Source of the DNA: Burkholderia anthina
Lineage (GTDB): Bacteria; Pseudomonadota; Gammaproteobacteria; Burkholderiales; Burkholderiaceae
NCBI RefSeq assembly: GCF_001547525.1
Contig: NZ_LNJP01000004.1
Span: 248,001-312,000 of the forward strand
Direction: 5' to 3'
DNA: 64,000 nucleotides
Shown here: in pieces, positions 11,941 through 31,646 of the stretch
How positions within the stretch are numbered: position 1 is the first letter of the stretch
Layout: each line of letters opens with the position of its first letter
Position numbers and translations under genes: made by a program
The notes under the pieces: model-generated
What the model was told of the DNA's origin: nothing
What the model saw: the letters and a program-made list of their open reading frames with translations, nothing else
Database searches by the model: none

Positions 11941-12082
11941 GCGCCGCACCGCCGGCCGCGACCCGTCGTCGCGGCCGGGATCTGTGTACCATCGTGCGTA
12001 GGGTGCGACGCGCGGCACCGGGCATCACGGCCCGATGCGGCGCGCGTCGCGGAAGCGGTCGTGCAACGAAGGTGAGCGTTCC

Positions 12083-13228: not shown

Positions 13229-13382
13229 CCGGTGGCCGAGGACGGCCGTTATGCGACGCGAACGCGCATCGCGCGCCCCGCGGTTTCCTTTCGTCGGGAA
13301 TGACAGCGCATGGCGGCGTGCGGCGCCGTTGGCTAGTATGCAGACATGCGCGTTCGCTCCGTTCCTTGCCCGTTCCGCCGAC

Positions 13383-14857: not shown

Positions 14858-15337
14858 GTGCAACTGACCCAGTTAGGCGGGCATGTCGCCCAATCCGGCA
14901 TCGCCGAACGGCAAAAACACGCGCAGGCGCTGATGTTCGGGATGGCGAACATCGACGAGTACATGTCCGGCGGCGTCTGCTACGATGCCGCGGCCTACGT
15001 GCGGTATCTGCTGCGCGCGGACGCGATGATCACGCCCGCGGCGCTGCTCGACACGATCGGCCAGTCGTGGAGGACGCGCTTCAACTTCGAGACCGGCACT
15101 CAATGGGACGGGCGCGCGAGCATTCCGGCGGGCACCGCGGTCGGCTTCGCCCGCGGCGCGAATGTCTTTCACGCGGCGATTGCCGTCGGCGGCACCCGGA
15201 TCCGCGGGATCAACGGCGGCCTGCTGGGCGCCGGCTGGCTGCATCCGGTCGATCTGGCACGCGTGCTGCAGCCGGATCCGGCCGGCGGTTTTACGTACGA
15301 CCGCACGACCATTCGTGTCTATCTGTCGCGCCTGTAG
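14858..15337 (+). CDS. Hypothetical protein with possible Cys/His peptidase-like core
   Basis: A 159-residue protein from GTG 14858, with AAAGGAG well placed upstream. I do not recognise a named family. The pattern is suggestive of a papain-like (NlpC/P60-like) fold: a Cys at the start of a helix (SGGVCYDAAAYVRYLL, C41), then a strand beginning with His (NVFHAAIAVGGTRI, H105), then a turn GINGG that could give a third polar residue. That reading is inference only. No signal peptide or membrane segment is seen. The gene has no operon partner and an unusual AT-rich leader, so it may be separately controlled or horizontally acquired. Confidence 0.6.
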   Translation: MQLTQLGGHVAQSGIAERQKHAQALMFGMANIDEYMSGGVCYDAAAYVRYLLRADAMITPAALLDTIGQSWRTRFNFETGTQWDGRASIPAGTAVGFARGANVFHAAIAVGGTRIRGINGGLLGAGWLHPVDLARVLQPDPAGGFTYDRTTIRVYLSRL

Positions 15338-15623: not shown

Positions 15624-16517
15624 ATGGTCAAGACAACGATGAGCGGCGCACCCGATCCGGCGGCGCCCGGCGACGAAGAATCGTCGGGCGGCGCTTCGTC
15701 CTATCTGGTGCCGGGGCTCGAACGCGGGTTGCGGATCCTCGCCGAATTCTCCGCGCGCGAACCCGTGCTCGGTGCGCCGGAACTGTCGAAGCGCATCGGC
15801 ATTCCGCGCACCACGACGTTCCGCCTGCTGCAGACGCTCGAGGCGCTTGGTTTTCTCGAACGCGTGAACGGCGATCGCTATTTCCGGCTCGGCGTCGGCG
15901 TGCTGCGGCTCGGCTTCGAATACCTGAATTCGCTCGAACTGACCGATCTCGGCACGCCCGTGCTCGAACGGCTGCGCGATTCGACCGGCCTGTCGACGCA
16001 CCTGCTGATCCGCGACCAGCGCGACGTGGTGTTCGTCGCGAAGGCGCAGAGCAATGCGTCGATGTTCGGTTCGGTGAAGGTGCACGTCGGCACGCGCCTG
16101 CCCGCGCATGCGACCGTGCACGGCCACGTGCTGATGGGGGACCTGACGCGCGATGCGATGCGGCAGCTCTATCCGGAGAAAAAACTCGAACAGTTCACCG
16201 AGCGCACGCCCGGCACCGTCGACGAACTGTACGAACGCGTGCGTCACTACGCTCGGCTCGGCTATGCGGTCAGCGAGGCGGCGTTCGAGAGCGGCATTTC
16301 GGCCGTGACCGCACCCGTGCGCGATCATTCGGGCTCGATCGTCGCGGCGATCACCGCGACGGTGCCACGCTCGGAGATCGGCGAGGCCGGCGAGAAGGAG
16401 CGGCTCGTCGAGGCCGTGTGCGGTGCGGCGGTCGACCTGTCGCAACGGCTGAACTATCGTCCGCTCGAAAGCGACCCGACGTTCGCGCATGCGCGTCACA
16501 AGGTCGCGATGTTCTGA
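15624..16517 (+). CDS. IclR-family regulator, copy 1
   Basis: A 297-residue regulator. The winged helix-turn-helix is at residues about 28-88 (VPGLERGLRILAEFSAREPV, then IPRTTTFRLLQTLEALGFLE). The C-terminal effector domain carries the IclR signature VGTRLPAHATVHGHVLMG and a late TAPVRDHSGSIVAAIT. It is closely similar to the second IclR gene at 22148, with nearly the same recognition helix, so both should read the same operator. It is convergent with the porin gene and ends in a strong terminator. The likely target is the porin/Rieske region, where palindromes of IclR type occur. An internal ATG at 15639 is an alternative start. Confidence 0.93.
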   Translation: MVKTTMSGAPDPAAPGDEESSGGASSYLVPGLERGLRILAEFSAREPVLGAPELSKRIGIPRTTTFRLLQTLEALGFLERVNGDRYFRLGVGVLRLGFEYLNSLELTDLGTPVLERLRDSTGLSTHLLIRDQRDVVFVAKAQSNASMFGSVKVHVGTRLPAHATVHGHVLMGDLTRDAMRQLYPEKKLEQFTERTPGTVDELYERVRHYARLGYAVSEAAFESGISAVTAPVRDHSGSIVAAITATVPRSEIGEAGEKERLVEAVCGAAVDLSQRLNYRPLESDPTFAHARHKVAMF

Positions 16518-16557
16518 CGCTCGCGTATCGATCCGGCCGCCGCGCGCGGCATTGCAG

Positions 16558-16594
16558 ACGACAAGAGCGGCCCGTGGGCCGCTCTTGTCGTTTT
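16558..16594. terminator. Strong bidirectional-looking terminator between IclR copy 1 and the porin
   Basis: Perfect 16-bp stem with arms ACGACAAGAGCGGCCC and GGGCCGCTCTTGTCGT around a 2-base loop, followed by TTTT on the plus strand. It lies between two convergent genes. Confidence 0.9.
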
Positions 16595-16624
16595 CGGGCG
16601 CCGAAGCCCGGTGCCCGAACGCGT

Positions 16625-17704
16625 TCAGAACGAATGATGAATCCCGGTCAGTACGATCACCTGGTTCGCGGTGCTCGACACGCCGGCCGTGAAGAACGCG
16701 GCCTTCGCGCCGCCGGAAGCGTGTTCATAAAGCACGTTCGCATACAACTGCGTGCGCTTGGACAGCGCGTAGATGTCGCCGAGTTCGACCTGCGTCCAGC
16801 GGCGGCCGGCCAGCGTCGTGGTCGCCGCGCCGCCCGCGATCGTGTTGAACGCGCTGCTGCGGTAATTCACGCCCGCGTCGTAGCTCTGGAACGTGTCGGA
16901 AAACCCGTTCGACTGCATCTTCACGCGCGTGTAGAGGCCGTGCACGAGAAAGTCGCCGATCTGGTAGGACGCGCCCGCGCCGATGTTCTCGACCTTGCTG
17001 GCGAGATAACCGTTCGCGGTGTTCTGCCCCTGGAACGACGTGATGCCCGTCTGGCCGATCAGGAGCGAGCGATCGTGCTCGTTCGAGTAGACGGCCGACG
17101 CCTTGAACGGCCCGTTCGCATAGTTCAGTGCGACGCCGACCGATTTGCCGGTCGAGAAGTTCGTCGTGTTGCCGAGCGCGAGCGTCGCCGCGGCCGAAAA
17201 GCCCGCGAAGGTCGGTGAACGATACTTGATCGAATTGTTGTACGGCACGTTGCCGGTCGCGGCGAGCCCGTCGATGTTGCCCGGATGGAACGCGTACCAG
17301 CTCATCGCGAGGTACGCGGTGCTGAGCGGGTCGAGATAGTCGAACGCCAGCGGCGTCTGGCGGCCGAGCGTCAGCGTGCCGTAGCGCTCGGCGCCGAGGC
17401 CGACGAACGCCGCGCGATTCCAGATCGTGTTCGCGGTCGCGAACTGGCCGTTGTTCGTATAGAAGCCGTTTTCCAGCTGGAAGATCGCCGACAGCCCGCC
17501 GCCGAGATCTTCCTTGCCTTTCAGGCCCCACCGGTCGGGCTGCGTATTGCCCTGGATCATCGCCCACTTCGCGTGGCCGCCGACGTTGTTCACGTATGCG
17601 ACACCCGCGTCCATGCTGCCGTACAGCACCACGCTGCTCTGCGCCCACGCGCCCGACGCGGCACCCATTCCGATGACTGCCGCTGCTACCGCATGCTTGA
17701 CCAT
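16625..17704 (-). CDS. Gram-negative general porin (OmpC/Burkholderia type)
   Basis: A 359-residue outer-membrane porin from ATG 17704, which has GGAG six bases upstream. The signal peptide ends AWA before QSSVVLYGSMDAGVAYV, the typical first strand of Burkholderia trimeric porins. Many alternating beta-strands follow, with the glycine-rich family phrases RWGLKGKEDLGGGLSAIFQL and LTLGRQTPLAFDYLDPL. It ends in HHSF with a terminal phenylalanine, as required for outer-membrane insertion. The gene is divergent from the Rieske operon and shares its operator-bearing intergenic region, so it probably admits the pathway substrate and is co-regulated. Confidence 0.95.
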   Translation of the reverse strand: MVKHAVAAAVIGMGAASGAWAQSSVVLYGSMDAGVAYVNNVGGHAKWAMIQGNTQPDRWGLKGKEDLGGGLSAIFQLENGFYTNNGQFATANTIWNRAAFVGLGAERYGTLTLGRQTPLAFDYLDPLSTAYLAMSWYAFHPGNIDGLAATGNVPYNNSIKYRSPTFAGFSAAATLALGNTTNFSTGKSVGVALNYANGPFKASAVYSNEHDRSLLIGQTGITSFQGQNTANGYLASKVENIGAGASYQIGDFLVHGLYTRVKMQSNGFSDTFQSYDAGVNYRSSAFNTIAGGAATTTLAGRRWTQVELGDIYALSKRTQLYANVLYEHASGGAKAAFFTAGVSSTANQVIVLTGIHHSF

Positions 17705-17803
17705 TTGATCTCCTGACTCTCCAACCTGATGAAAACGTGTTGCGACGGCCTGCGCGGGGACGGCCGGCCGTCGCGCGGGTGCATCGTCGAGTGGGCATTT
17801 GTA

Positions 17804-17821
17804 TGTTCCATATAAGGAACA
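17804..17821. promoter_or_regulatory. Candidate IclR operator, porin side
   Basis: Palindrome TGTTCC-ATATAA-GGAACA, about 100 bp upstream of the porin start. The same spaced dyad recurs at 18089, and both share an A before TGTTCC. Confidence 0.7.
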
Positions 17822-18042
17822 TCGTGCCTCTGATGGAATGGAGTATAGGGGCGCGGAGCGTTCGATCAAAAATAAATTTTTCGGGACGGATGAGTGCCTC
17901 CGTGAGGCCGTACAACAAGGCCTGATGCCTTTGAAAAACCGATAAACCCGCGTCAAACAACAAAAAATTACATTCGATAAGGTAGGCGAAGGGGGCGGTC
18001 GAACTGCGCGTCGGTGTTTTCCCTAGGACATGCAGCTTTTTA

Positions 18043-18071
18043 TTTTGCTCGCGGACAGTCGCTCCTATAAT
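18043..18071 (+). promoter_or_regulatory. Sigma-70-type promoter of the Rieske operon
   Basis: A perfect TATAAT at 18066-18071 with a weak -35 (TTTTGC at 18043, 17-bp spacing). Transcription would start near 18078, just before the operator at 18089. Confidence 0.6.
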
Positions 18072-18088
18072 CACCATCCATAAACTGA

Positions 18089-18106
18089 TGTTCCTGATAT
18101 GGAACA
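18089..18106. promoter_or_regulatory. Candidate IclR operator, Rieske side
   Basis: Palindrome TGTTCC-TGATAT-GGAACA, followed by an extra half-site GGAACA at 18111. It lies about 10-30 bases after the predicted transcription start, a position that favours repression. Confidence 0.7.
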
Positions 18107-18148
18107 AAACGGAACAAACCGAGAGTCGATCAGAAGGAAGGGTGCGAG

Positions 18149-18466
18149 ATGTCTGAGCAATGGATTTGTGCCGGTCACGCCGGCGCGCTGTCGGAAGACA
18201 CGCCGATCGAGTTCAAGCGGACCGACGGCGTGGAAATCGGGATCTACCGCGTCGGCGACGACGTGTATGCGCTCGAGAACGTATGCCCGCATGCGTACGC
18301 GCTGCTGACGCAGGGGTTCGTCGACGAAGGCACGGTCGAATGCCCGCTGCACGAGGCCGTGTTCGACATCAAGACGGGCGAATGCCTGAAGGGCCCGGGC
18401 GGGCGCGCGCTGAAGCAGTACGCGGTGCGCCTCGCCGGCGAGGAAATCCAGATCAAGGTGGACTGA
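18149..18466 (+). CDS. Rieske [2Fe-2S] ferredoxin of a ring-hydroxylating system
   Basis: A 105-residue soluble electron carrier. It has the Rieske ligands in CPHAYALLTQGFVD and ECPLHEAVFD, that is C-x-H then C-x2-H. There is no membrane anchor, so it is the biphenyl-dioxygenase-type ferredoxin rather than a cytochrome bc1 Rieske protein. It should pass electrons from the FAD reductase at 28903 to the oxygenase at 18841. It is the first gene of the long rightward operon, directly behind the promoter and candidate IclR operator. Confidence 0.93.
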   Translation: MSEQWICAGHAGALSEDTPIEFKRTDGVEIGIYRVGDDVYALENVCPHAYALLTQGFVDEGTVECPLHEAVFDIKTGECLKGPGGRALKQYAVRLAGEEIQIKVD

Positions 18467-18468
18467 AC

Positions 18469-18780
18469 ATGAAAGAAGCGACCGTCAACTTCAATCCCTT
18501 CCTGAAGCCGTGGGTGGCGCCGCAGCCGAACAACGTCGCGGGCAAGGGGCAGATCGAGATCCCCGGCCAGGTCGAGAACCTGGTCTGGCAGAACCGCAAG
18601 GCGGAACCCACCCAGTACGAGAACGACCTCGGCGATGCGCTCGAACGCGTGTTCGAGAGCGGCGCGATCGAGCTGGACGATGTCGTCGCGGGGCTGAACC
18701 GCATCGGCTTTCGCGCGCCGGACGGTACGGTTTGGACACCTGAGCGTTTCCGCGCCGAAATGGCCTCGCTGGCGGAATGA
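18469..18780 (+). CDS. Recombinase-like helix-domain protein
   Basis: A 103-residue protein two bases after the ferredoxin stop. The C-terminal half (DALERVFESGAIELDDVVAGLNRIGFRAPDGT, then WTPERFRAEMASL) resembles the small helical domain found at the end of serine recombinases, but no recombinase catalytic domain is present. From memory, databases name such proteins recombinase-like helix domain proteins and they recur beside Rieske oxygenases. The N-terminal 40 residues (NFNPFLKPWVAPQPN) are Pro/Asn-rich. The role is unknown: possibly a small regulator or an accessory to the oxygenase. Confidence 0.75.
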   Translation: MKEATVNFNPFLKPWVAPQPNNVAGKGQIEIPGQVENLVWQNRKAEPTQYENDLGDALERVFESGAIELDDVVAGLNRIGFRAPDGTVWTPERFRAEMASLAE

Positions 18781-18840
18781 ACGCGCCGACCGCGCCGCGC
18801 GCCTGAGCGCCGACCCGACAACCGCATCCGGAGCACACTG

Positions 18841-19911
18841 ATGACGTCCCCCGACCAACACGAAACCCAACACGACCCGGTCCGCGACTACCTCGATCGC
18901 GGCATCAAGAACTACTGGTATCCCGTCGCGCCCAGCTGGCAGGTGTCGAACGCGCCCGTCGGCCTCACGCGCCTGTCCGAGCAGATCGTGCTGTGGCGCG
19001 ATCACGACGGCAAGGTCCACGCGCTGGAAGACCGCTGCCCGCACCGCGGCGCGCGCCTGTCGCTCGGCTGGAACCTTGGCGGCAACATCGCGTGCTGGTA
19101 TCACGGCATCGAAGTCGACGGCGGCGGCACGGTCAACCGCGTGCCGGCGGTATCGAACTGTCCGCTCGAAGGCACGAAGTGCGTGAAGTCGTATCCGGTC
19201 GAGGAGAAGGCCGGCGCGATCTTCCTGTGGTTCGGCGACGAAGCGCACGGCGAGCCGGCGCCGCTTAATCTGCCGGAAGAACTGGTCGCCGACGAATACG
19301 CGCACTTCCTGTGCGTGTCGAACTGGAAGTGCAATTACCAGTACGCGATCGACAACGTGATGGACCCGATGCACGGCGCGTATCTGCACGCGACGTCGCA
19401 CTCGATGGCCGAAGGCGACAAGCAGGCCGACATGCGCGTGCGCAAGACGGACACGGGCCTGATGTTCGAGAAGATCGGCCAGCGCGACGTGAACTTCGAC
19501 TGGGTCGAACTCGGCGAAACCGGCTGCCTGTGGATGCGCCTCGCGATTCCGTACAAGCAGAAATTCGGCCCGGGCGGCAACTTCGGGATCATCGGCTTCG
19601 CGACGCCGGTCGACGGCGACCACTGCCAGGTCTATTTCTGGCGTACCCGCAAGGTCGGCGGCTGGCAGCGCGACGTGTGGCGCTTCATGTACCGCAACCG
19701 CCTCGAAGGCCTGCACTGGGACGTGCTCGAGCAGGACCGCTACGTCCTCGAAAGCCTCGCGCCGCATGCGCGCGATCACGAATACCTGTACCAGCACGAC
19801 GTCGGCATCACACGTGTGCGCCGGATGCTGCGCCAGCGTGCGCAGGAACACCTGTCCGCGCTCGACGCGCATCGTGCGGCGCATGCCGCCTCGGAGCACG
19901 CGAATGGCTGA
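18841..19911 (+). CDS. Rieske non-heme iron oxygenase, alpha subunit
   Basis: The terminal oxygenase component, 356 residues. The Rieske centre is C66-x-H68 (CPHRG) and C85-x2-H88 (CWYHG). The mononuclear iron site is D175-x2-H178-x4-H183 in NVMDPMHGAYLHATSH. It hydroxylates or O-demethylates an aromatic ring using electrons delivered by ferredoxin. No beta subunit follows, so this belongs to the alpha-only branch (VanA, toluenesulfonate and phenoxybenzoate types). Its stop overlaps the start of the next SDR gene. The substrate cannot be read from the sequence. Confidence 0.94.
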   Translation: MTSPDQHETQHDPVRDYLDRGIKNYWYPVAPSWQVSNAPVGLTRLSEQIVLWRDHDGKVHALEDRCPHRGARLSLGWNLGGNIACWYHGIEVDGGGTVNRVPAVSNCPLEGTKCVKSYPVEEKAGAIFLWFGDEAHGEPAPLNLPEELVADEYAHFLCVSNWKCNYQYAIDNVMDPMHGAYLHATSHSMAEGDKQADMRVRKTDTGLMFEKIGQRDVNFDWVELGETGCLWMRLAIPYKQKFGPGGNFGIIGFATPVDGDHCQVYFWRTRKVGGWQRDVWRFMYRNRLEGLHWDVLEQDRYVLESLAPHARDHEYLYQHDVGITRVRRMLRQRAQEHLSALDAHRAAHAASEHANG

Positions 19912-20674
19912 GTTCGCTCCGGTCGTGGCATTGCCCGGTCGCCGCGTGCTCGTCACGGGCGGCGCGCGCGGTCTCGGCGCGGCGTTCGTGAAGGCGCTGG
20001 TCGAAGCGGGTGCACAGGTCGCGTTCGGCGACGTGCTCGCGGAAGAGGGCCGCGCGCTCGCCGCGCAGCTCACGCAAGCCGGCCACGCCGCGCATTTCTT
20101 CGCACTCGACCTTGCCGATCCGGCCAGCATCGACGCTTTCGTCGCGCAGGGCGCGGCGGCGCTCGGCGGCATCGACGCGCTGATCAACAACGCGGCGATC
20201 ACGAACTCGGGCGGCAAGCTGTCGACGGAGCTCGACGTGGCGACCTGGGACGCCGTGATGAACGTGAACGTGCGCGGCGTGTGGCTCGTCAGCAATGCAG
20301 CGCTGCCGCACCTCGCTCAGTCGGGGCGCGGCGCGATCGTGAATCTTGCGTCGGATACCGCGTTGTGGGGCGCGCCCAAGCTGCTCGCGTACGTCGCGAG
20401 CAAGGGCGCGGTGATCGCGATGACGCATGCGCAGGCACGCGAGTTCGGCGCGCACGGCGTAACGGTCAACGCGATCGCGCCGGGGCTCACCGAAGTCGAG
20501 GCGACCGCCTACGTACCGGCCGAGCGCCATGCGTTCTACCTGCAGGGCCGTGCGCTGACGCGCGCGCAGGTGCCCGGCGACGTGACGGGCCCCGTGCTGT
20601 TCCTGCTGTCGGACGGCGCGCGCTTCGTCACGGGTCAACTGCTGCCGGTCAACGGCGGCTTCGTAATGAACTGA
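19904..20674 (+). CDS. Short-chain dehydrogenase (possible dihydrodiol or alcohol dehydrogenase)
   Basis: A 256-residue SDR starting inside the end of the oxygenase gene (8-base overlap). The coenzyme motif is VTGGARGLGAAF. NNAAITN marks the central strand. The catalytic set is the Ser in LASDTALW and Tyr-Lys in YVASKGAV. In Rieske pathways an SDR often re-aromatises the cis-dihydrodiol or oxidises a side-chain alcohol; here that is inference from position. Confidence 0.88.
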   Translation: MAEFAPVVALPGRRVLVTGGARGLGAAFVKALVEAGAQVAFGDVLAEEGRALAAQLTQAGHAAHFFALDLADPASIDAFVAQGAAALGGIDALINNAAITNSGGKLSTELDVATWDAVMNVNVRGVWLVSNAALPHLAQSGRGAIVNLASDTALWGAPKLLAYVASKGAVIAMTHAQAREFGAHGVTVNAIAPGLTEVEATAYVPAERHAFYLQGRALTRAQVPGDVTGPVLFLLSDGARFVTGQLLPVNGGFVMN

Positions 20675-20708
20675 ATTGAAGTTTTCACTCGGAATGAAGG
20701 AGAGGACG

Positions 20709-21236
20709 ATGGCGGACGCCGATCTCGAACGCAAGTCGTGGGACCAGCCGGAAGGCGCAAGCTTCAACGACTGGATGGAAGGGCGCGTCGCGCGCTACGC
20801 GACGCGGCGCTACGACTGGGACGCGCTGAAGTTCCAGGCCGACTACGACCCGAAGTACCGCCGCGCGCAGATGCGCTACGTCGGCACGGGCGGCACGGGC
20901 GTCGCGAAGGACGTCAACACGGTGCCGGCCGGCAACTTCACGTTCTCGACGATGGTCATCCCGGCCGGCAACATCGGCCCGAGCCACATCCATATCGACG
21001 TCGAGGAAATCTTCTTCGTGCTGCGCGGCAAGATGAAGGTGATCTGCGAGCGCGACGGCGAGACCTGGGAAGCGATCCTCGGCGAGCGCGACCTGATCTC
21101 GGTGCCGCCGGGCGTGTATCGCACGGAAATCAACATCGGCGAGGAAGATGCGCTGATGTGCGTGATGCTCGGTTCGCCGAAGCCGATCACGCCGACGTAT
21201 CCGCCCGATTCGCCGCTCGCGAAGATCAAGCGCTGA
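20709..21236 (+). CDS. Cupin-domain protein
   Basis: A 175-residue single-cupin protein from ATG 20709 with AAGGAG upstream. Metal ligands of the first cupin motif are seen in GPSHIHIDVEEIFFVLRG (H-x-H and Glu). The second motif is around VPPGVYRTEINIG, where the expected His is replaced, so the metal site may be incomplete. Cupins in aromatic catabolic operons can be dioxygenases, isomerases or sugar-type binding domains; which applies here is unknown. It sits between the SDR and a hydrolase gene in the operon. Confidence 0.85.
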   Translation: MADADLERKSWDQPEGASFNDWMEGRVARYATRRYDWDALKFQADYDPKYRRAQMRYVGTGGTGVAKDVNTVPAGNFTFSTMVIPAGNIGPSHIHIDVEEIFFVLRGKMKVICERDGETWEAILGERDLISVPPGVYRTEINIGEEDALMCVMLGSPKPITPTYPPDSPLAKIKR

Positions 21237-21254
21237 GGCGGGGCGGGCGAAGCA

Positions 21255-22151
21255 ATGAGTGTCATCGACAAACGTGAACGCGACCGCACCGCGGTGTTCG
21301 CCGCGCTGCTCGGGCAGTTTCCCGAACAGCGTTGCGTAGCCGGCGCGGCGGGCACGATCGGCTACCGTGAGGCCGGCGCGCGGTATGCGGGCCGCGCGCT
21401 GCCCGCCGTGCTGCTGCACGGGATCGGCTCGGGCGCCGCATCGTGGGTGTGCCAGCTCGACACGCTCGGCGCATCGCGCCGCGTGCTCGCGTGGGATGCG
21501 CCCGGTTACGGCGTGTCGACGCCCGTGCACGGCGCGTCGCCTGCCGCCGCCGATTACGCGGCATCGCTGAACGCGTGGCTCGAGGCACTCGGCATCGAAC
21601 GCTGCGTGCTGGTCGGCCATTCGCTCGGCGCGATCATCGCGGGCGGTCTCGCCCGTGTGATGCCCGCGCGGATCGCCGGCCTGCTGCTGGTGTCGCCCGC
21701 CGGCGGCTACGGCAGCGCACCGGCCGACACCCGCGAATCGCGCCGCGACGCGCGGCTCGCGATGCTCGCGGAACTCGGTCCGGCCGGGCTCGCCGAGCAG
21801 CGCAGCGGCAACATGCTGTCCGGTTTCGCGAACGAGGAGGCGCGGGCGTGGGTGCGCTGGAACATGGCGCGCATCGTGCCGGCCGGCTATGCGCAGGCCA
21901 CGCATCTGCTCGCGAACGCCGATCTCGCGGCCGATCTCGCCGGCTTTCGCGGCCGCACGGCCGTGGCCGTCGGCGCGCACGATGCGATCACGCCGCCCGC
22001 CGCGTGCGAGCGGATCGCCGCGGCCGCGCACGTCGGGCTGCAGGTGATTCCGCAGGCCGGGCATGCGGGTTACGTGGAAGCGCCGGCCGTCTATTCCGCA
22101 TTGATCGAAGGTTTCTGCCGGCAGTGCGAGACGCAGTGGGGGCTGGCATGA
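21255..22151 (+). CDS. Alpha/beta hydrolase, possible meta-cleavage product hydrolase
   Basis: A 298-residue hydrolase with oxyanion-hole motif LLHGIGSGAASW, nucleophile elbow GHSLGAI, the acid in AVGAHDAITP and the catalytic His in QAGHAGYVEAP. Its size and motifs match the C-C hydrolase group that cleaves ring-fission products (BphD/MhpC-like). The presence of an extradiol-type VOC enzyme in the same operon makes that role reasonable, but an esterase is possible. It ends in ATGA with the second IclR gene. Confidence 0.85.
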   Translation: MSVIDKRERDRTAVFAALLGQFPEQRCVAGAAGTIGYREAGARYAGRALPAVLLHGIGSGAASWVCQLDTLGASRRVLAWDAPGYGVSTPVHGASPAAADYAASLNAWLEALGIERCVLVGHSLGAIIAGGLARVMPARIAGLLLVSPAGGYGSAPADTRESRRDARLAMLAELGPAGLAEQRSGNMLSGFANEEARAWVRWNMARIVPAGYAQATHLLANADLAADLAGFRGRTAVAVGAHDAITPPAACERIAAAAHVGLQVIPQAGHAGYVEAPAVYSALIEGFCRQCETQWGLA

Positions 22152-23005
22152 GCGAACCGCTGCAACAAAACGAATCCGACAACGCGAAGGCCGAGGCCAA
22201 CTATGTGGTGCCGGGCCTCGAACGCGGGCTGCGGATTCTCGCCGAATTCTCGCCGCGCGAGCCCGTGCTCGGCGCGCCCGAACTGTCGAAACGGCTCGGC
22301 ATTCCGCGCACGACGGTGTTCCGTCTGCTGCAGACACTCGAATCGCTCGGCTTTCTCGAACGCGCGGACAAGGATCGCAACTACAAGCTCGGCATCGCGG
22401 TGCTGCGGCTCGGCTTCGAATACCTGAGCTCGCTGGAGCTGACCGATCTCGGCCTGCCGGTGATCGAGAGCCTGCGCGATGCGACCGGCTTCACGACGCA
22501 CATCGTGATCCGCGACGGCCGCGACGTGGTGTTCGTCGCGAAGGCGCAGAGTCAGTCGCCGGTGTTCAGCTCGATCCGCGTGAACGTCGGCACGCGGCTG
22601 CCCGCGCATGCGACGACGCACGGCCACGTGCTGATGGGCGACCTGTCGCTGAAGGAACTGCATGCGCTGTATCCGGAACGCGTGCTGAACCGGATGACGA
22701 GCGCGACGCCGGAAACGGTCGACGCGCTGTACGACGTGATCCGCGAGGACGCACTGCGCGGCTACGGCGTCAGCAATTCGTCGTTCGAACGCGGGATCTC
22801 GGTCGTCACGGCGCCGGTGCGCAACGAGACGCAGAAGATCGTCGCGTGCATCACGGTGACGGTGCCGAGGCCGGAGATCGACGCGGCGCTGATCGCGGAC
22901 GGGCTGATCGACAAGGTGCAGCGCGCGGCGGCGGAATTGTCGCGGCGGCTCAATTACCGCTCGGATGACGAGCACACGTTCATGAAAGCTTTAGGACTGA
23001 AATGA
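22148..23005 (+). CDS. IclR-family regulator, copy 2 (inside the operon)
   Basis: A 285-residue regulator whose ATG overlaps the hydrolase stop by four bases, so it is translated from the operon message and should feed back on it. The helix-turn-helix (VPGLERGLRILAEFSPREPV; IPRTTVFRLLQTLESLGFLE) is nearly identical to that of copy 1 at 15624, and the effector domain keeps VGTRLPAHATTHGHVLMG. Differences concentrate in the effector pocket (residues about 110-220), which suggests the paralogues may sense different compounds while binding the same DNA. The prime candidate operators are at 17804 and 18089. Confidence 0.93.
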   Translation: MSEPLQQNESDNAKAEANYVVPGLERGLRILAEFSPREPVLGAPELSKRLGIPRTTVFRLLQTLESLGFLERADKDRNYKLGIAVLRLGFEYLSSLELTDLGLPVIESLRDATGFTTHIVIRDGRDVVFVAKAQSQSPVFSSIRVNVGTRLPAHATTHGHVLMGDLSLKELHALYPERVLNRMTSATPETVDALYDVIREDALRGYGVSNSSFERGISVVTAPVRNETQKIVACITVTVPRPEIDAALIADGLIDKVQRAAAELSRRLNYRSDDEHTFMKALGLK

Positions 23006-23084
23006 GACCCCAACGCATGCTTCGCACGCTGCCCCCCGACGGGGCGGTCAATCTTCTTGGGGCGGCCCGGCGAGGACCGACGAC

Positions 23085-23874
23085 ATGATCGAGATCGATC
23101 TGACCGGGCAGGTGGCGGTGGTGACGGGCGGTTCGTCCGGCATCGGCCTCGCGACCGTCGAACGGTTCCTGCAGGCCGGCGCGTCGGTCGCGATCTGCGG
23201 CCGCGACGGCGAACGCCTCGCCCGCGCCGAAGCGATGCTGCGCGACAAGTACGCAGGCGCACGACTGCTGGCCGCGCGCTGCGACGTGCTCGACGAAGCC
23301 GACGTGACCGCATTCGCGCAAGCGGTGTCCACGCGTTTCGGCCGTGCCGACATGCTGGTCAACAATGCAGGCCAGGGCCGCGTGTCGACTTTCGCCGATA
23401 CGACCGACGACGCCTGGCGCGAAGAACTCGAATTGAAGTACTTCAGCATCATCCGTCCGACGCGCGCCTTCCTGCCGCTGCTGCGCGATGCGGCCGCACC
23501 GACGATCACCTGCGTGAACTCGCTGCTCGCGCTGCAGCCGGAGCCGCACATGGTCGCGACGTCGTCGGCGCGCGCCGGCGTGCTGAGCCTCGTGAAATCG
23601 CTCGCGACCGAACTGGCGCCGCAGCGCATCCGCGTGAACTCGATCCTGATCGGCATCGTCGAGTCGGGGCAGTGGCGCCGCCGCTACGACACGCAGGCGC
23701 AGCCCGGCGAAAGCTGGGAAGACTGGACGGGCGCGCTCGCCCGCAAGAAGAACATTCCGCTGAATCGCTTCGGCAAGCCCGACGAGGCCGCCTGGGCACT
23801 TTTTTATCTCGCAACGCATCTGTCGTCCTACACGACGGGCAGCCATATCGACGTTTCTGGAGGCTTTGCACGCC

Positions 23875-23882
<8 letters not shown>
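23085..23882 (+). CDS. SDR-fold protein lacking the catalytic Tyr/Lys
   Basis: A 265-residue protein with an intact coenzyme-binding motif VTGGSSGIGLAT and the NNAGQG strand. The active-site Ser is present (S146 in CVNSLLAL). At the position of the catalytic Tyr, 13 residues further, there is Thr159, and four residues later Arg163 replaces the Lys (ATSSARAG instead of Y-x3-K). It therefore may not be a normal dehydrogenase. It could bind cofactor for regulation, or use an altered mechanism. The end overlaps the TPP-enzyme start by eight bases. The 80-bp gap before it contains no terminator. Confidence 0.85.
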
Positions 23883-26362
<2,480 letters not shown>

Positions 26363-26434
26363 CCGGACCATCGAGCGTCCGCCCGCGCCACGGCGAGGGC
26401 GGATGCGCAGAGACAGATTTGTGGGATAGGTGAC

Positions 26435-27925
26435 ATGACTTCTTTCGATACGAGCCTCGTGCCCGACGGCAACATCCTGGTCGGCGGCGAGTGGCGGCGC
26501 GGCCGTGGCGCGCCTTACACGAGCATCTATCCGGCCGACCAGACGGTGAACATGGAAGTGTCGACGGCGAACGCGGAAGACGCGGCCGACGCCGTCGTGG
26601 CCGCCGACGCCGCATGGCGCCGCGCCGACTGGGCCGGGCTCAAACCGCATCAGCGCGCGCAGGTGCTGTACCGCGTCGCCGACCTGATCATGCAGCGCCA
26701 CGAAGCGCTCGCGCACCTGCAGCGCCGCGACAACGGCAAGCCGATCGGCGAGACGCGCGTGCTGGTGGCCAGCGCCGCGAACACGTTCCGCTATTTCGCG
26801 GCCTGCCTCGAGACGCTCGACGAAGAACTGACGCCGTCGCGCGGCGATTACCTGACGATGAGCGTGTACGAGCCGATCGGCGTGATCGCGGCGATCACGC
26901 CGTGGAATTCGCCGATCGCGTCCGACGCGCAGAAGCTTGCGCCGGCGCTGGCCGGCGGCAACGCGGTGGTGCTCAAGCCGGCCGAGGTCACGCCGCTCGT
27001 GTCGCTCGCGCTGGCGCGCATCTGCGAGGAAGCCGGCGTGCCGAAGGGCGTGCTGAGCGTGCTGCCGGGCAAGGGTTCGGTGATCGGCGACGTGCTCGTG
27101 CGCCATCCGCTGGTGAAGAAGGTGTCGTTCACCGGCGGCACCGAGGTAGGCCGCGGCATCGCGCGCATCGCGGCCGAGAAGCTGATGCCCGTGTCGCTCG
27201 AACTGGGCGGCAAGTCGCCGACGATCGTGTGCGACGACGCCGATCTCGATCATGCGGTCAACGGCGTGCTGTACGGGATCTTCAGCTCGTCGGGCGAGGC
27301 GTGCATCGCCGGGTCGCGGCTGTTCGTGCAGCGCGCGGTGTACGACGCATTCATGCAGCGCCTGGTGGCCGGCGCGCGCGCGCTGCGCGTGGGCGACCCG
27401 GCGCGGCCCGACACGCAGATGGGCCCGCTGATCACCGCGAAGCATCGCGAGTCGGTGGAACGCTACGTCGTGCTCGGGCTGGAAGAAGGCGGCCGCCTGC
27501 TGTGCGGCGGCGAGCGGCCGACGGGCGACGGGCGCGAGCACGGCTTCTTCTATCAGCCGACGATTCTCGAAGGCTTGCCGAACAGCGCACGCATCTGCCA
27601 GGAGGAAATCTTCGGGCCGGTGCTGGTCGCGATGCCGTTCGACGACGAAGCGTCGCTGATCGCACAGGCGAACGACAGCGTGTTCGGCCTCGCGGCCGGC
27701 ATCTGGACGCGCGACTACAAGCGTGCGTGGCGCATCGCGCGGGCGCTGGAGACGGGCACCGTGTGGATCAACACGTACAAGCTGTTCTCGATCTCCACGC
27801 CGTTCTCGGGCTGGAAGGAGAGCGGGATGGGGCGCGAGAAGGGGCGTCTCGGCATCCGCGAATACATGCAGCAGAAGAGCCTCTACTGGGGCTTGAACGA
27901 CGCGCCGCTGCCGTGGGCGAACTGA
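26435..27925 (+). CDS. NAD(P)-dependent aldehyde dehydrogenase
   Basis: A 496-residue ALDH with all core motifs: ITPWNSPIASDAQKLAPAL (Asn in the active site), FTGGTEVGRGIA (coenzyme loop), LELGGKSP (general-base Glu) and SSGEACIAGSRLFV (catalytic Cys), then EEIFGPV and ESGMGREKG near the end. It oxidises an aldehyde to an acid. Following the TPP enzyme it probably oxidises the aldehyde that enzyme releases. About 70 bp separate it from the gene before; no terminator is seen, so it stays in the operon. Confidence 0.93.
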   Translation: MTSFDTSLVPDGNILVGGEWRRGRGAPYTSIYPADQTVNMEVSTANAEDAADAVVAADAAWRRADWAGLKPHQRAQVLYRVADLIMQRHEALAHLQRRDNGKPIGETRVLVASAANTFRYFAACLETLDEELTPSRGDYLTMSVYEPIGVIAAITPWNSPIASDAQKLAPALAGGNAVVLKPAEVTPLVSLALARICEEAGVPKGVLSVLPGKGSVIGDVLVRHPLVKKVSFTGGTEVGRGIARIAAEKLMPVSLELGGKSPTIVCDDADLDHAVNGVLYGIFSSSGEACIAGSRLFVQRAVYDAFMQRLVAGARALRVGDPARPDTQMGPLITAKHRESVERYVVLGLEEGGRLLCGGERPTGDGREHGFFYQPTILEGLPNSARICQEEIFGPVLVAMPFDDEASLIAQANDSVFGLAAGIWTRDYKRAWRIARALETGTVWINTYKLFSISTPFSGWKESGMGREKGRLGIREYMQQKSLYWGLNDAPLPWAN

Positions 27926-27943
27926 GCGAAGGGGAATGACGCA

Positions 27944-28906
27944 ATGAGCATCTTGGGAATCGAGCAGATCACGTACGGTGTCGACGACCTCGCCACCTGC
28001 CGGCGCTTTTTCGCCGACTGGGGCTTGAAGGAAGTCGCGCACGACGACACCCGCGCCCGTTTCGAAACGCTGAACGGCTGCACCGTGCTGGTCGTGCGGG
28101 CCGACGATCCGTCGCTGCCGCCCGCATTCGAAGCCGGCCCGACGCTGCGTGAAGTCACGTGGGGCGTCGCGACGCGGCAGGAACTCGACGCGCTGCGCAC
28201 GAAGCTCGCCGGCCAGCCCGGCTATTACGCGCAGGAGGATGCGGTCGGCTGCATCGATCCGAACGGGATGGCGATCCGCGTCGAAGTCACGCGCAAGCGC
28301 GCACTCGACATCACGGGCTCGCCGTCGAACGTGTGGGGCCAGACGCTGCGCGTCGACCAGCCGAGCCCGATCTATGCGCGCGCGGAGCCGGTCGAGGTCG
28401 GGCACGTCGTGTTCTTCACGAACTGCCTCGACGCGCAGGAAACGTTCTATCACGAACTGCTCGGCTTCGAGACGTCGGACCGTTACCCGGGCCGCGGTGC
28501 GTTCATGCGCTGCGCGCCGCACGGCGGCCATCACGACCTGTTCCTGCTCGCGCTGCCGAATGGAAAACGCGGCCTGAACCACGTCGCGTTCACCGTGCGC
28601 GACATCCACGAAGTGTTCGGCGGCGGCATGCACATCGACCGCTGCGGCTGGCAAACGCAGCTCGGCCCGGGGCGTCATCCGGTGTCGTCCGCGTACTTCT
28701 GGTACTTCCAGAACCCGGCCGGCGCATTGATCGAGTACTACGCGGACGAGGACGTGCTCACGCCCGAGTGGCAGCCGCGCGAATTCGAGCCGGGCCCGAC
28801 CGTGTTCGCCGAATGGGCCGTCGACGGCGGCCTCGACGGCAACACGCGCCGGCAGAAGAACGCGAAGGCGCCGGAAGGCAAGTTCATGACGGAGCGGAAA
28901 TCGTGA
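27944..28906 (+). CDS. Two-domain VOC dioxygenase, type I extradiol-like
   Basis: A 320-residue protein made of two VOC modules (about 5-120 and 150-270), the layout of catechol 2,3-dioxygenases. Candidate Fe(II) ligands lie in the second module: H153 (VGHVVFFT), H213 (LNHVAFTV) and E264 (LIEYYAD), with a spacing close to that of BphC. It should open a catechol-like ring next to the hydroxyls, completing the Rieske-initiated route. The acidic, lysine-rich C-terminal tail of about 40 residues extends beyond the fold. The stop overlaps the reductase start as GTGA. Confidence 0.88.
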   Translation: MSILGIEQITYGVDDLATCRRFFADWGLKEVAHDDTRARFETLNGCTVLVVRADDPSLPPAFEAGPTLREVTWGVATRQELDALRTKLAGQPGYYAQEDAVGCIDPNGMAIRVEVTRKRALDITGSPSNVWGQTLRVDQPSPIYARAEPVEVGHVVFFTNCLDAQETFYHELLGFETSDRYPGRGAFMRCAPHGGHHDLFLLALPNGKRGLNHVAFTVRDIHEVFGGGMHIDRCGWQTQLGPGRHPVSSAYFWYFQNPAGALIEYYADEDVLTPEWQPREFEPGPTVFAEWAVDGGLDGNTRRQKNAKAPEGKFMTERKS

Positions 28907-30147
28907 GCGAAACGAACTCGCAGGAATCGGCCGCGCCGGGCACGGTCGTCGTGATCGGCGGCGGCCAGGCGGCCGGCTGGGTGCTGAAGACGCTGCGCGC
29001 GGAAGGCTTCGCGGGCCGCCTGGTGATGATCGCCGACGAGCCGCATCTGCCGTACGAGCGCCCGCCGCTGTCGAAGGCCGTGCTGGCCGGCGACGCCGAC
29101 ATCGAAACCGTGCGCGTCGTGCGCCCCGACGAATTCGATGCGCTGAACGTCGAAGCGTGGCAGCCGGAACGCGCGGCGTCGATCGATCGCGCGCGCCGCG
29201 TGGTGAAGACCGAAAGCAGCCGCGAGATCGCATACGACCGGCTCGTGATCGCGACCGGCGGCACGTCGCGCCGCTTGCCCGATGCGCTCGTCAACACGCC
29301 GAACCTGCATTACCTGCGCACGCTCGACGAAGCGGCCGCGCTCGGCGAGAAGCTGCGCGCGAGCCGGCGCGTGCTCGTGATCGGCGGCGGCTGGATCGGC
29401 CTCGAAGTCGCGGCAACGGCGCGCAAGCTCGGCGTCGATGCGATCGTGGTCGAAGGTGCGCCGCGCCTGTGCGGCCGTTCGGTGCCGCAGATCGTGTCGG
29501 ACTTCCTGCTCGACCTGCATCGTTCGAACGGTGTCGAGGTGCGCACGGGCGCGGCGCTCGCGTCGCTCGACCCGCAGCCGGACGACGCGTCGAAGGTACG
29601 CGCGACGCTTGCCGACGGCACGACGATCGACGCCGATTTCGCGGTGGCCGGCATCGGCCTCGCGCTGAACGTGTCGCTCGCGAGCGACGCGGGGCTCGCG
29701 ATCGACGACGGCATCGTCGTCGACGAATACGGCGCGACCAGCGATCCGGCGATCTTCGCGTGCGGCGACGTCGCGAACCATCACAACGGCTGGCTGAAGC
29801 GGCGCGTGCGGCTCGAATCGTGGGCCAACGCGCAGAACCAGGCGATCGCGGCGGCGAAGGCCGTGCTCGGCGTACGCGCGCCGTATGCGGAGATTCCGTG
29901 GTTCTGGTCCGATCAGTACGACGTGAACCTGCAGATCCTCGGCGATCTGCCGGCCGATGCGCAGCTCGTCGTGCGCGGCGATCTCGCCGCGCGCCGTGCG
30001 ACGCTGTTTTTCGTTGGCGACGGGCATGTGAGAGGTGTCGTCGCGGTGAACAACGCGCGTGAGTTGAAGCTCGCGCGCAAGTGGATGAACCAGGGCCGGG
30101 CGGTGGATACGGAAGCTCTGGCAGACACGACCCAGGCGCTTGCCTGA
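28903..30147 (+). CDS. FAD-dependent ferredoxin reductase
   Basis: A 414-residue flavoprotein from GTG 28903. Motifs: FAD-binding VVIGGGQAAGWV, the NAD(H)-binding VLVIGGGWIGLEVAATA, the ATG hinge (VIATGGTSR) and the second FAD motif AIFACGDVANH, with a C-terminal reductase domain (RLESWANAQNQAIAAA; SDQYDVNLQILG). This is the BphA4/putidaredoxin-reductase family that transfers electrons from NADH to Rieske ferredoxins. With the genes at 18149 and 18841 it completes a three-component oxygenase, although it is encoded 10 kb downstream of its partners. Confidence 0.93.
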   Translation: MSETNSQESAAPGTVVVIGGGQAAGWVLKTLRAEGFAGRLVMIADEPHLPYERPPLSKAVLAGDADIETVRVVRPDEFDALNVEAWQPERAASIDRARRVVKTESSREIAYDRLVIATGGTSRRLPDALVNTPNLHYLRTLDEAAALGEKLRASRRVLVIGGGWIGLEVAATARKLGVDAIVVEGAPRLCGRSVPQIVSDFLLDLHRSNGVEVRTGAALASLDPQPDDASKVRATLADGTTIDADFAVAGIGLALNVSLASDAGLAIDDGIVVDEYGATSDPAIFACGDVANHHNGWLKRRVRLESWANAQNQAIAAAKAVLGVRAPYAEIPWFWSDQYDVNLQILGDLPADAQLVVRGDLAARRATLFFVGDGHVRGVVAVNNARELKLARKWMNQGRAVDTEALADTTQALA

Positions 30148-30185
30148 CCGGTCCAACCCGGAAAGAGATCCAGGAGATACCCCGC

Positions 30186-31586
30186 ATGAGCACTTTCGAC
30201 AACGTCGTGGCCGGCAGGGCCACGATGGAAGCTGCCGCCGCCACGCCCGGTGCGATCATCGCGCGGCTCGAGCGGTTGCCGGCCAACGCGATGCAGATCC
30301 GTGCGCGCGTGCTGATCGGCACCGCGACGTTCTTCGACGGCTTCGACGTGATCACGATCGCGGCGACGCTGCCGCTGCTGATTCATAAATGGGGGCTGTC
30401 GCCGACGCAGATCGGCATGCTGATCGCGTCCGGCGCGATCGGCCAGTTGATCGGCGCCTTCCTGTTTCCCGCGCTCGCGGAAAAGCACGGCCGCGTGAAG
30501 GCGATCGCGTGGAGTTCGGCGGTGATCGGGATCACGAGCATCGCGTGCGGCTTCGCGCCGACGTTCGAGGTGTTCGTGCTGCTGCGGATCCTGCAGGGGC
30601 TCGGGCTCGGCGGCGAATTGCCGGTCGCCGCGACGTACATCAACGAGATCACGCGCGCGCATGGCCGCGGCCGCTTCGTGCTGCTGTACGAGATCGTGTT
30701 CCCGATCGGCCTGCTCGTGTCGATGGCGCTCGGCGCGTGGCTCGTGCCGCGCTTCGGCTGGGAGATCATGTACTTCGTCGGCGGGCTGCCGCTGCTTCTG
30801 TCGCTCGTGCTCACGCATCTCGTGCCGGAGTCGCCGCGCTGGCTCGCGTCGCGCGGGCGGCTCGCGGAGGCCGGGCGTGCGGTCGGCGCGTTCGAGGAAT
30901 CGGTGCGCGGCGAGTTGCCGCCGGCCACGCAGGCGGCCGCGTTCGACGAGATGGTGCGTCAGCATCCGAAGCGCAGGATGAGCGACCTGTTCAGCGCCGC
31001 GTATCGCAAGCGCACGCTCGCGGTGGCGACGCTGTGGGCGACCTGCGGGTTCATCCAGTACGGGCTGTCGACCTGGCTGCCGACGATCTACAAGAACTTC
31101 TATCACGCGCCGCTGCAGCTCGCGCTGAACCTCGCGGTGATCGGCTCGGTGATGGGCGTGCTCGGGTCGCTGGCCTCCGCGCTGCTGGTCGACAAGCTCG
31201 GCCGCAAGCCGGTGATCGTGTGGTCGTTCGTGCTGTGCGCGCTGTCGCTGGCGTTCGCGGGCATCTATCACGCGTCGTCGGTGTATGTGGTCGCGACTTT
31301 CTGCTCGCTGTCGCTCGGGCTGATGGCGTCGGGCTTCATTACCGCGTACGTCTATACGCCGGAGCAGTATCCGACGAGCATCCGCGCGTCGGGCTGCGGG
31401 CTCGGCAGCGCGTGGCTGAAGATCGCGTCGTTCGCGGCGCCGATGATCGTGCCGCACGCGATCATCGGCGGGAACCTCGCGCCGGCGTTCTACCTGATCG
31501 GCATCGTGCCGCTGATCGCGGCGGCGACCGTGCACTTCGTCGGGATCGAGACGAAGGGGAAGGTGCTGGAGGCGCTCGAGGCGTAA
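30186..31586 (+). CDS. MFS transporter, aromatic acid:H+ symporter (AAHS) type
   Basis: A 466-residue, 12-helix inner-membrane transporter from ATG 30186 with GGAG upstream. The first helix has the family Asp motif TATFFDGFDVITIAATLP. The loop 2-3 motif is LFPALAEKHGRVKAIAW, and VPESPRWLASRGR follows helix 6, as in sugar/aromatic-acid permeases. It likely imports the aromatic substrate after passage through the porin at 16625. It is the last gene of the operon, followed by a strong terminator. Confidence 0.93.
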   Translation: MSTFDNVVAGRATMEAAAATPGAIIARLERLPANAMQIRARVLIGTATFFDGFDVITIAATLPLLIHKWGLSPTQIGMLIASGAIGQLIGAFLFPALAEKHGRVKAIAWSSAVIGITSIACGFAPTFEVFVLLRILQGLGLGGELPVAATYINEITRAHGRGRFVLLYEIVFPIGLLVSMALGAWLVPRFGWEIMYFVGGLPLLLSLVLTHLVPESPRWLASRGRLAEAGRAVGAFEESVRGELPPATQAAAFDEMVRQHPKRRMSDLFSAAYRKRTLAVATLWATCGFIQYGLSTWLPTIYKNFYHAPLQLALNLAVIGSVMGVLGSLASALLVDKLGRKPVIVWSFVLCALSLAFAGIYHASSVYVVATFCSLSLGLMASGFITAYVYTPEQYPTSIRASGCGLGSAWLKIASFAAPMIVPHAIIGGNLAPAFYLIGIVPLIAAATVHFVGIETKGKVLEALEA

Positions 31587-31617
31587 GCGTGGCCGGCAGT
31601 CACAGTTCAGGTACTCG

Positions 31618-31646
31618 GGCCCGGGGATGTTCCCCGGGCCTTTTTT
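31618..31646 (+). terminator. Terminator of the Rieske operon
   Basis: Stem GGCCCGGGGA / TCCCCGGGCC, three-base loop, followed by six T. About 30 bp after the transporter stop. Confidence 0.92.

Follow-up and report, generated by a model that had tools for sequence, protein, structure and literature searches.

A conserved operon of Burkholderia anthina that may encode the degradation of kynurenate or a closely related compound

The stretch of DNA analysed here (64,000 nucleotides of the 7.27 Mb genome of Burkholderia anthina, contig NZ_LNJP01000004.1, positions 248,001 to 312,000; referred to as the window) carries an operon of 14 genes, all on the + strand between 18149 and 31586, running from a Rieske ferredoxin gene to a gene for an aromatic-acid-type transporter. 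The gene products suggest an inducible, locally regulated catabolism of kynurenate (4-hydroxyquinoline-2-carboxylate) or of another quinoline-2-carboxylate very similar to it, a reading to which we assign a probability of about 0.5, the substrate and all of the reactions being predictions. The original prediction had placed a catabolic island with an unassigned aromatic substrate at 15624-31586; the operon is real, with the qualification that the operon proper begins at 18149, a regulator gene lying upstream and a porin gene being divergent.

Results

Proposed correspondence with the kynurenate pathway

The genes are ordered as follows: Rieske ferredoxin, HTH_62 protein, Rieske oxygenase, a canonical short-chain dehydrogenase/reductase (SDR1), cupin, alpha/beta hydrolase, an IclR-family regulator (IclR2), an atypical SDR (SDR2), thiamine pyrophosphate (TPP) enzyme, aspartate dehydrogenase, aldehyde dehydrogenase (ALDH), vicinal oxygen chelate (VOC) protein, ferredoxin reductase and a major facilitator superfamily (MFS) transporter. 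Adjacent genes overlap by at most 8 bp or are separated by at most 79 bp. This tight spacing, and the recurrence of the set, syntenic or regrouped, in distant taxa, indicate that the grouping is beyond chance. Profile scans identified every component that had been named beforehand, namely the ferredoxin, oxygenase, HcaD-like reductase, VOC protein with extradiol ligands, hydrolase, TPP enzyme, ALDH, aspartate-dehydrogenase-family protein, MFS transporter and porin; that list had omitted the PF20552 (HTH_62) protein, both SDRs, the cupin and two IclR regulators.

The Rieske oxygenase, SDR1 and VOC protein are read as performing dihydroxylation, rearomatization and extradiol cleavage, and the aspartate dehydrogenase, TPP enzyme and ALDH as converting an amino acid to an oxo acid, an aldehyde and an acid in turn. 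Taken by class, the enzymes encoded together cover dioxygenation, oxidation of a diol, extradiol cleavage, a reduction, a decarboxylation and the oxidation of an aldehyde, the reductase role of SDR2 being a guess. The kynurenate ('quinoline') pathway of Pseudomonas was described biochemically in the 1960s and has 4,6-dihydroxypicolinate intermediates in KEGG map00380. This pathway (EC 1.14.99.2, 1.3.1.18 and 1.13.11.10 plus later steps) agrees with the operon in the classes and order of its enzymes, including the nitrogen ring that is left over; the likeness lies at the level of enzyme class. To our knowledge, no pathway other than kynurenate degradation requires, for a nitrogen ring, a dioxygenase and a diol dehydrogenase followed by extradiol cleavage, reduction of the side chain, decarboxylation of an oxo acid and oxidation of an aldehyde.

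In the proposed route, the substrate would enter through the porin and the MFS transporter, and the Rieske oxygenase, served by its ferredoxin and reductase, would form the 7,8-cis-dihydrodiol, which SDR1 would oxidize to the 7,8-diol. Cleavage of C8-C8a by the VOC enzyme would give a 4,6-dihydroxypicolinate that bears a carboxy-oxopropenyl side chain, the double bond of which SDR2 may reduce; the TPP enzyme would decarboxylate the 2-oxo acid to an aldehyde, and the ALDH would oxidize this to the 2-carboxyethyl compound. By our own retrosynthesis the hydrolase, perhaps together with the cupin, would open the dihydroxypicolinate ring, hydrolysis at N1-C6 and C4-C5 yielding glutarate and iminosuccinate, and the aspartate-dehydrogenase-type enzyme would act on the latter (giving aspartate or oxaloacetate). 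Iminosuccinate could arise from hydrolysis of the remaining ring, which would explain the presence of an aspartate dehydrogenase. Neither a hydratase nor an aldolase is encoded in the operon, and the genome yielded no further member of the regulon, which suggests products close to central metabolism. The original prediction had taken the TPP enzyme and the aspartate-dehydrogenase-like protein as a hint that the ring bears an amino- or oxo-acid side chain, and this is borne out in part. Both the TPP enzyme and the ALDH suit the removal of an oxo-acid side chain, but in the present model it is ring cleavage that creates this chain, and the ring nitrogen and 2-carboxylate, rather than a side chain of the substrate, would supply the amino acid.

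Entry enzymes

Conservation of active-site positions was computed on 103 loci, with totals per position that differ by gene; the catalytic roles assigned to the residues are those known for each family. The oxygenase alpha subunit (18841-19911; PF00355 and PF19112) keeps its eight ligand residues across 98 loci, one residue deviating in one locus. Its AlphaFold2 model has a mean predicted local distance difference test (pLDDT) score of 77 and is poor at residues 176-192 and 290-319, where ligand residues sit. The ferredoxin (18149-18466; PF00355) scored 88.8 bits with the AndAb model, under its cut-off, and the reductase (28909-30147; PF07992 and PF14759) scored 383.5 bits with the HcaD model against a cut-off of 450. 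SDR1 (19904-20674), the candidate dihydrodiol dehydrogenase, has the classical SDR tetrad Asn-Ser-Tyr-Lys in 96 of 96 loci.

The HTH_62 protein (18469-18780; 103 aa; PF20552, 99.1 bits) gave an AlphaFold2 model of mean pLDDT 74, in which the C-terminal half forms three helices with confidence. Its gene accompanies the Rieske gene and was absent from six of six loci lacking the latter.

Ring-cleavage and downstream enzymes

The VOC protein (27944-28906; PF00903), the candidate extradiol dioxygenase, has the residues of a type I enzyme, that is, two His and one Glu as ligands with a catalytic His and Tyr, a pattern taken from BphC. His154 and His197 are present in 94/94 loci, and His213, His245, Tyr254 and Glu264 in 93/94 (one locus was unaligned). 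The candidate 2-oxo acid decarboxylase (TPP enzyme, 23875-25542) scored 975.2 bits with NF005470, over the cut-off of 495, and keeps its TPP motif residues across the loci of the alignment (103 given). The aspartate-dehydrogenase-family enzyme (25535-26362) passed the L-aspartate dehydrogenase model NF009826 (568 bits; cut-off 479), and its His228, present in 93/93 loci, aligns with the solved enzyme 2dc1; the in vivo substrate is putative. The ALDH (26435-27925) matched PF00171 at 572.7 bits.

SDR2 (23085-23882) exceeded the cut-off for NF005468 (485.1 bits; 266) and lacks the classical tetrad, the positions being Lys118, Ser146 and Thr159 (each in 94/95 loci) and Arg163 (95/95); the motif TGGxSGIG is kept in all six SDR2 sequences aligned. 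A close solved relative is Q9HYA2 (PDB 3lf1/3lf2; E = 1.1e-107 with 3lf1, over residues 4-264), presumably PA3507 of P. aeruginosa, which in the alignment has Thr and Arg where SDR2 has them and for which no reaction was found. A paper reportedly calls its catalytic centre atypical. The usual Tyr-Lys pair is missing in some C=C reductases with the SDR fold, and by this analogy SDR2 is taken, as a guess, to be an enone reductase.

In the alpha/beta hydrolase (21255-22151; PF12697) the Ser-Asp-His triad is conserved (Ser123 in 98/98 loci, Asp243 and His270 in 97/98, one locus being unaligned). The C-C-type hydrolase originally proposed is no more than a possibility: among solved structures esterases match best, and BphD/HsaD/MhpC-type enzymes rank behind them. 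The cupin (20709-21236; PF07883) occurs in 98 of 110 loci if a two-domain form is included, and a search for its relatives yielded weak matches and nothing stronger. For the MFS transporter (30186-31586), assigned beforehand to the aromatic acid:H+ symporter (AAHS) family, TIGR00895 was the best model, yet at 223.8 bits it fell below the curated cut-off of 418.55; the protein is taken to act like an AAHS transporter, and membership is not claimed. The NCBIfam models passed by proteins of the operon are generic (SDR, TPP-binding, aspartate dehydrogenase).

Joint presence and loss of genes

The gene set was compared across 110 loci, some of them truncated; TPP-enzyme relatives without the cluster (L101 and L172) and short loci from the genome search were excluded. 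The order of the genes varies and the set is mostly retained, with the VOC gene in 101 loci, SDR2 in 102, the TPP gene in 106, the aspartate dehydrogenase in 98, the ALDH in 96 and the hydrolase in 105; most gaps are contig ends. A Rieske gene was found in 104/110 loci, and SDR1 in 102 of these 104. Of the two without SDR1, L073 lies at a contig end and L098, from a Caballeronia plasmid, is a partial second copy. As redox partner the Rieske enzyme has an HcaD-like reductase in 63 loci, a VanB-type reductase in 15 and a flavodoxin in 9; none was seen in 17, several of which are truncated.

Six loci lack the Rieske gene, one being a 4.4-kb fragment (L117). All five complete ones (L096, L119, L120, L122 and L168) also lack SDR1 and the HTH_62 gene, and all five have a flavin monooxygenase. 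The top model for this enzyme, in L096, L119, L122, L013 and L099, was 3-hydroxybenzoate 6-monooxygenase, under its cut-off. Rieske and flavin systems occur together in six loci. Seven cluster-bearing loci obtained after the rule linking the Rieske gene with SDR1 had been formulated all obey it, six having both genes and L168 neither.

The Rieske oxygenase with SDR1, and the flavin hydroxylase, are read as alternative entries that converge on a single dihydroxylated intermediate. The flavin hydroxylase would replace the Rieske-SDR1 pair for a substrate that is already monohydroxylated; xanthurenate (8-hydroxykynurenate) would fit, and its entry by this route would explain the joint loss of the Rieske and SDR1 genes. 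Plasmid pNK84 of Caballeronia NK8 (L098, 13137-22368) carries another Rieske-TPP-VOC set, lacking SDR1; behind it lie the genes for a three-subunit molybdenum (Mo) hydroxylase and an SRPBCC protein. The Mo-hydroxylase matched generic models only, all under their cut-offs, and its position fits an entry for quinaldate, the conversion of which to kynurenate would need such an enzyme. A RidA gene lies beside the HTH_62/Rieske block in 5 of the 110 loci, and in one of the five the operator described below stands ahead of the block; RidA may assist hydrolysis of the imine.

A wider reading, held with slightly less than even confidence, is that the loci are a gene set for kynurenate degradation with exchangeable entry modules (Rieske and SDR1 for kynurenate, flavin hydroxylase for xanthurenate, Mo-hydroxylase for quinaldate) feeding one ring-cleavage core, which would include the atypical SDR and would salvage the ring nitrogen by means of an aspartate dehydrogenase.

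A shared operator and the regulators

The divergent porin gene (16625-17704, - strand, with an uncertain start that is our own reading; PF13609, E = 6.3e-47) and the operon have the palindrome GTTCC-N6-GGAAC in common. On the porin side it reads GTTCCATATAAGGAAC (17805-17820; exact in 14/56 loci) and on the operon side GTTCCTGATATGGAAC (18090-18105; kept in 56/56 loci with porin and ferredoxin genes). A string search found TATAAT ending 18 bp ahead of the operon-side operator; the porin side has one promoter-like match, with 1.2 expected, ending 21 bp before its operator.

The operator is present in 57 of 65 loci having a ferredoxin gene, the exceptions being seven more distant loci and L098, and its exact form occurs in three (L082, L099 and L128) of 41 more distant or rearranged loci. 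An alignment of 58 sequences shows both arms, the last spacer base and a few flanking bases to be invariant and the other spacer bases to vary. The loci are related, and these counts are therefore not independent. In Caballeronia M1242 the operator precedes the porin gene, the SDR1 operon and an MFS-HTH_62-Rieske-RidA-VanB block.

In its own genome the exact palindrome occurs at six sites (control pattern, one), the four outside the locus falling in coding-like frames, and a search for exact sites found no further regulon members there. The stricter 12-base form TGTTCC-N6-GGAACA has two copies in this genome, both at the locus. It was found in 9 of 11 genomes sampled from the genus (control 0/11), on the same contig as the TPP gene and ~6 kb away; of the exceptions, G417 lacks both motif and TPP gene and G403 has the TPP gene without the strict motif. 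Of 120 genomes from the family, 38 carry the motif, the individual placements having been checked within the genus.

IclR1 (15624-16517, + strand; PF01614 and PF09339), upstream of the operon, and IclR2 (22148-23005, + strand), inside it, are 62% identical. Pfam places both in the IclR family, and both fall short of the PcaR/PcaU/PobR subfamily model TIGR02431 (167.2 and 162.9 bits respectively; cut-off 284.75). We infer that an IclR protein binds GTTCC-N6-GGAAC, and one or both may control the operon and the porin through it. The unassigned catabolic operon with a co-regulated porin that was originally proposed is borne out by the conserved synteny, the common operator and the lack of a pathway in the literature searched.

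After the last gene lies a terminator-like hairpin (31617-31641, + strand) of 11 pairs, nine of them G-C, followed by a T-run; a second, weaker one lies inside the operon between IclR2 and SDR2 (23028-23048). The hairpin scan overall gave seven sites against a mean of 9.7 in shuffled sequence, not above chance. Given this and the internal hairpin, a single transcript is no more than presumed.

Distribution

Rearranged forms of the gene set recur in beta-, gamma- and alphaproteobacteria and in Streptomyces. A scan of GTDB contigs with the oxygenase gave at least 581 relatives, of which the best 80 were kept; among the matches listed, the closest loci are from Burkholderia (98-99%). The TPP family NF005470 was found in 56/61 sampled genomes of the genus and 15/398 of the phylum, in 9/198 of one further family (eight of these scored above the cut-off; L172, also among the nine, is without the cluster) and in 1/274 of one further class. 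Annotated loci come from Acinetobacter baumannii, Klebsiella pneumoniae, Novosphingobium, Caballeronia, Nitratireductor, Pseudosulfitobacter, Paracoccus and Vibrio nigripulchritudo, and unannotated examples from Streptomyces.

In a metagenome-assembled genome of a Paraburkholderia symbiont (L069) the IclR1, hydrolase, TPP, ALDH, VOC and reductase genes were undetected and others were shortened or diverged, so that this cluster looks decayed. In Novosphingobium resinovorum (L011) a gene for a GH3-type glycosidase (11957-13936; models under cut-offs) follows a TonB receptor gene and immediately precedes the TPP gene, a hint that the substrate may come in glycosylated form at that locus. The oxygenase matched 6 of 50,697 records in a phage collection (H56-H61), all of them Acinetobacter phage MD-2021a contigs and two 63% identical; these contigs are probably host DNA.

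Neighbouring features

A gene of the TecA family (type VI secretion effector deamidase) adjoins the operon at 14858-15334 (+ strand; NF040972, 322 bits; cut-off 220). Elsewhere in the window are a match to RF02278, a Betaproteobacteria toxic small RNA (2203-2260, - strand; 59.7 bits), and a tRNA-Ser (cga) gene (60100-60198, - strand).

Discussion

The original prediction could not match the gene order to a described pathway. That judgement holds, in that annotated syntenic records bear generic names alone and no close published match was found. In the portions of the open-licence literature covered by our searches, which did not include kynurenate degradation itself, no pathway was described for the cluster (PMC9732424, PMC5655620, PMC5069748, PMC9948736, PMC7760384, PMC6521587 and PMC5897657 among others). 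Searches by locus tags of AB5075, J2315, PAO1 and ATCC 17978 (those of J2315 and PAO1 being guesses) likewise gave no pathway, with no paper for J2315 and none named in the PAO1 passages retrieved.

Several observations count against kynurenate as the substrate. No sequence match ties the operon to a proven kynurenate enzyme, and no such enzyme is known to us by sequence. Kynureninase and its two adjacent frames, read as other kyn genes, had no match in 126 loci. SDR2 at 44% identity or more was not found in L075, L082, L088, L089 and L090, all of which extend past the TPP gene, and the aspartate dehydrogenase was not found in L090 and L168. The model leaves the HTH_62 protein and the cupin unexplained. 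We take EC 1.14.99.2, 1.3.1.18 and 1.13.11.10 to be orphan activities, which the main text of an orphan-enzyme survey does not confirm. That main text contains neither 'kynuren' nor 1.13.11.10, and 1.14.99.2 only within longer numbers (PMC1940265). The expression data from A. baumannii do not point to kynurenate either: ABUW_2942, 2943 and 2946, which by gene order are probably orthologues of operon genes, were up (log2 1.97, 2.09 and 2.26) on vitamin B12 together with sulphur-acquisition genes, a rise for which the model has no explanation (PMC12892962), and A1S_0956-0958 are listed among genes changed on mucin (PMC5757984).

Of the other substrates considered, the strongest is another N-heteroaromatic 2-carboxylate such as picolinate, dipicolinate, quinolinate or an indole-2-carboxylate, which we regard as unlikely. 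Hydroxylation, extradiol cleavage and amide hydrolysis would lead to a 2-amino or 2-imino acid, followed by deamination by the aspartate dehydrogenase or RidA, TPP-dependent decarboxylation and aldehyde oxidation. RidA, the aspartate dehydrogenase, NMT1-type ABC transporters and the Mo-hydroxylase recur near the clusters and suit nitrogen heterocycles generally, but a single pyridine ring would give separate steps of reduction, decarboxylation and aldehyde oxidation less to act on, and no described route with such a set is known to us.

More doubtful still is a benzenoid substrate, either an amino acid or the corresponding oxo acid, with for example a dihydroxyphenylalanine-type ring. The VOC enzyme would cleave the ring, the hydrolase would free aspartate and the aspartate dehydrogenase would oxidize it. 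Rieske oxygenase, SDR, extradiol enzyme and hydrolase form a classical set, and in our retrosynthesis hydrolysis of the cleavage product would yield aspartate; a dedicated TPP decarboxylase and ALDH would, however, be superfluous for oxaloacetate, and the other fragment would find neither a hydratase nor an aldolase in the operon. The same lack separates the operon from the benzenoid meta-cleavage operons (hpa/mhp). The VOC protein resembles HpaD (1.2e-17) and the ALDH resembles HpaE (1.7e-140), both under their cut-offs, but profile scans of the 14 genes found none of the hydratase or aldolase of the HpaD/MhpB-type operons, in place of which stand an aspartate dehydrogenase, a TPP enzyme and a second SDR.

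Least probable of the three is a methoxylated lignin-type acid, O-demethylated by the Rieske enzyme before extradiol cleavage and C-C hydrolysis like those of a LigX-LigZ-LigY route. The nearest solved relative of the oxygenase is the dicamba O-demethylase DdmC (1.3e-25), which favours such a role, as does the PF19112 domain, and which is a further point against kynurenate. The pairing of SDR1 with the Rieske gene nevertheless suits a product that SDR1 oxidizes rather than a demethylated phenol, and the exchange with a flavin hydroxylase and the aspartate dehydrogenase would go unexplained.

The lumichrome operon of Nocardioides simplex, in the passages of the report at hand, likewise combines a TPP decarboxylase, a Rieske system and an extradiol dioxygenase on a nitrogen heterocycle; it has in addition a P450, several hydrolases, Rieske subunits of both alpha and beta type and a TPP enzyme made up of two proteins (20 and 23 kDa), none of which is in the present operon, and the lumichrome pathway was rejected on these differences (PMC12746152). 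A TauE/SafE sulphite-exporter-family gene adjoins IclR1 on plasmid pNK83 of Caballeronia NK8 (L012, 5058-5921). A sulphonate or other sulphur compound, hinted at by this neighbour and the A. baumannii expression, was set aside, the conserved set having no sulphur-specific enzyme.

If kynurenate is the substrate, genes would be tied to a pathway known biochemically since the 1960s, and the presence of the set in so many of the sampled Burkholderia genomes, in Klebsiella, in Acinetobacter and in marine bacteria would be explained. The genes would also mark out microbes able to remove kynurenic acid, which is a tryptophan metabolite active in the host. Should the substrate differ, the loci would still represent a widely kept pathway with a defined operator, a traceable inducer and an unusual SDR with a solved relative.

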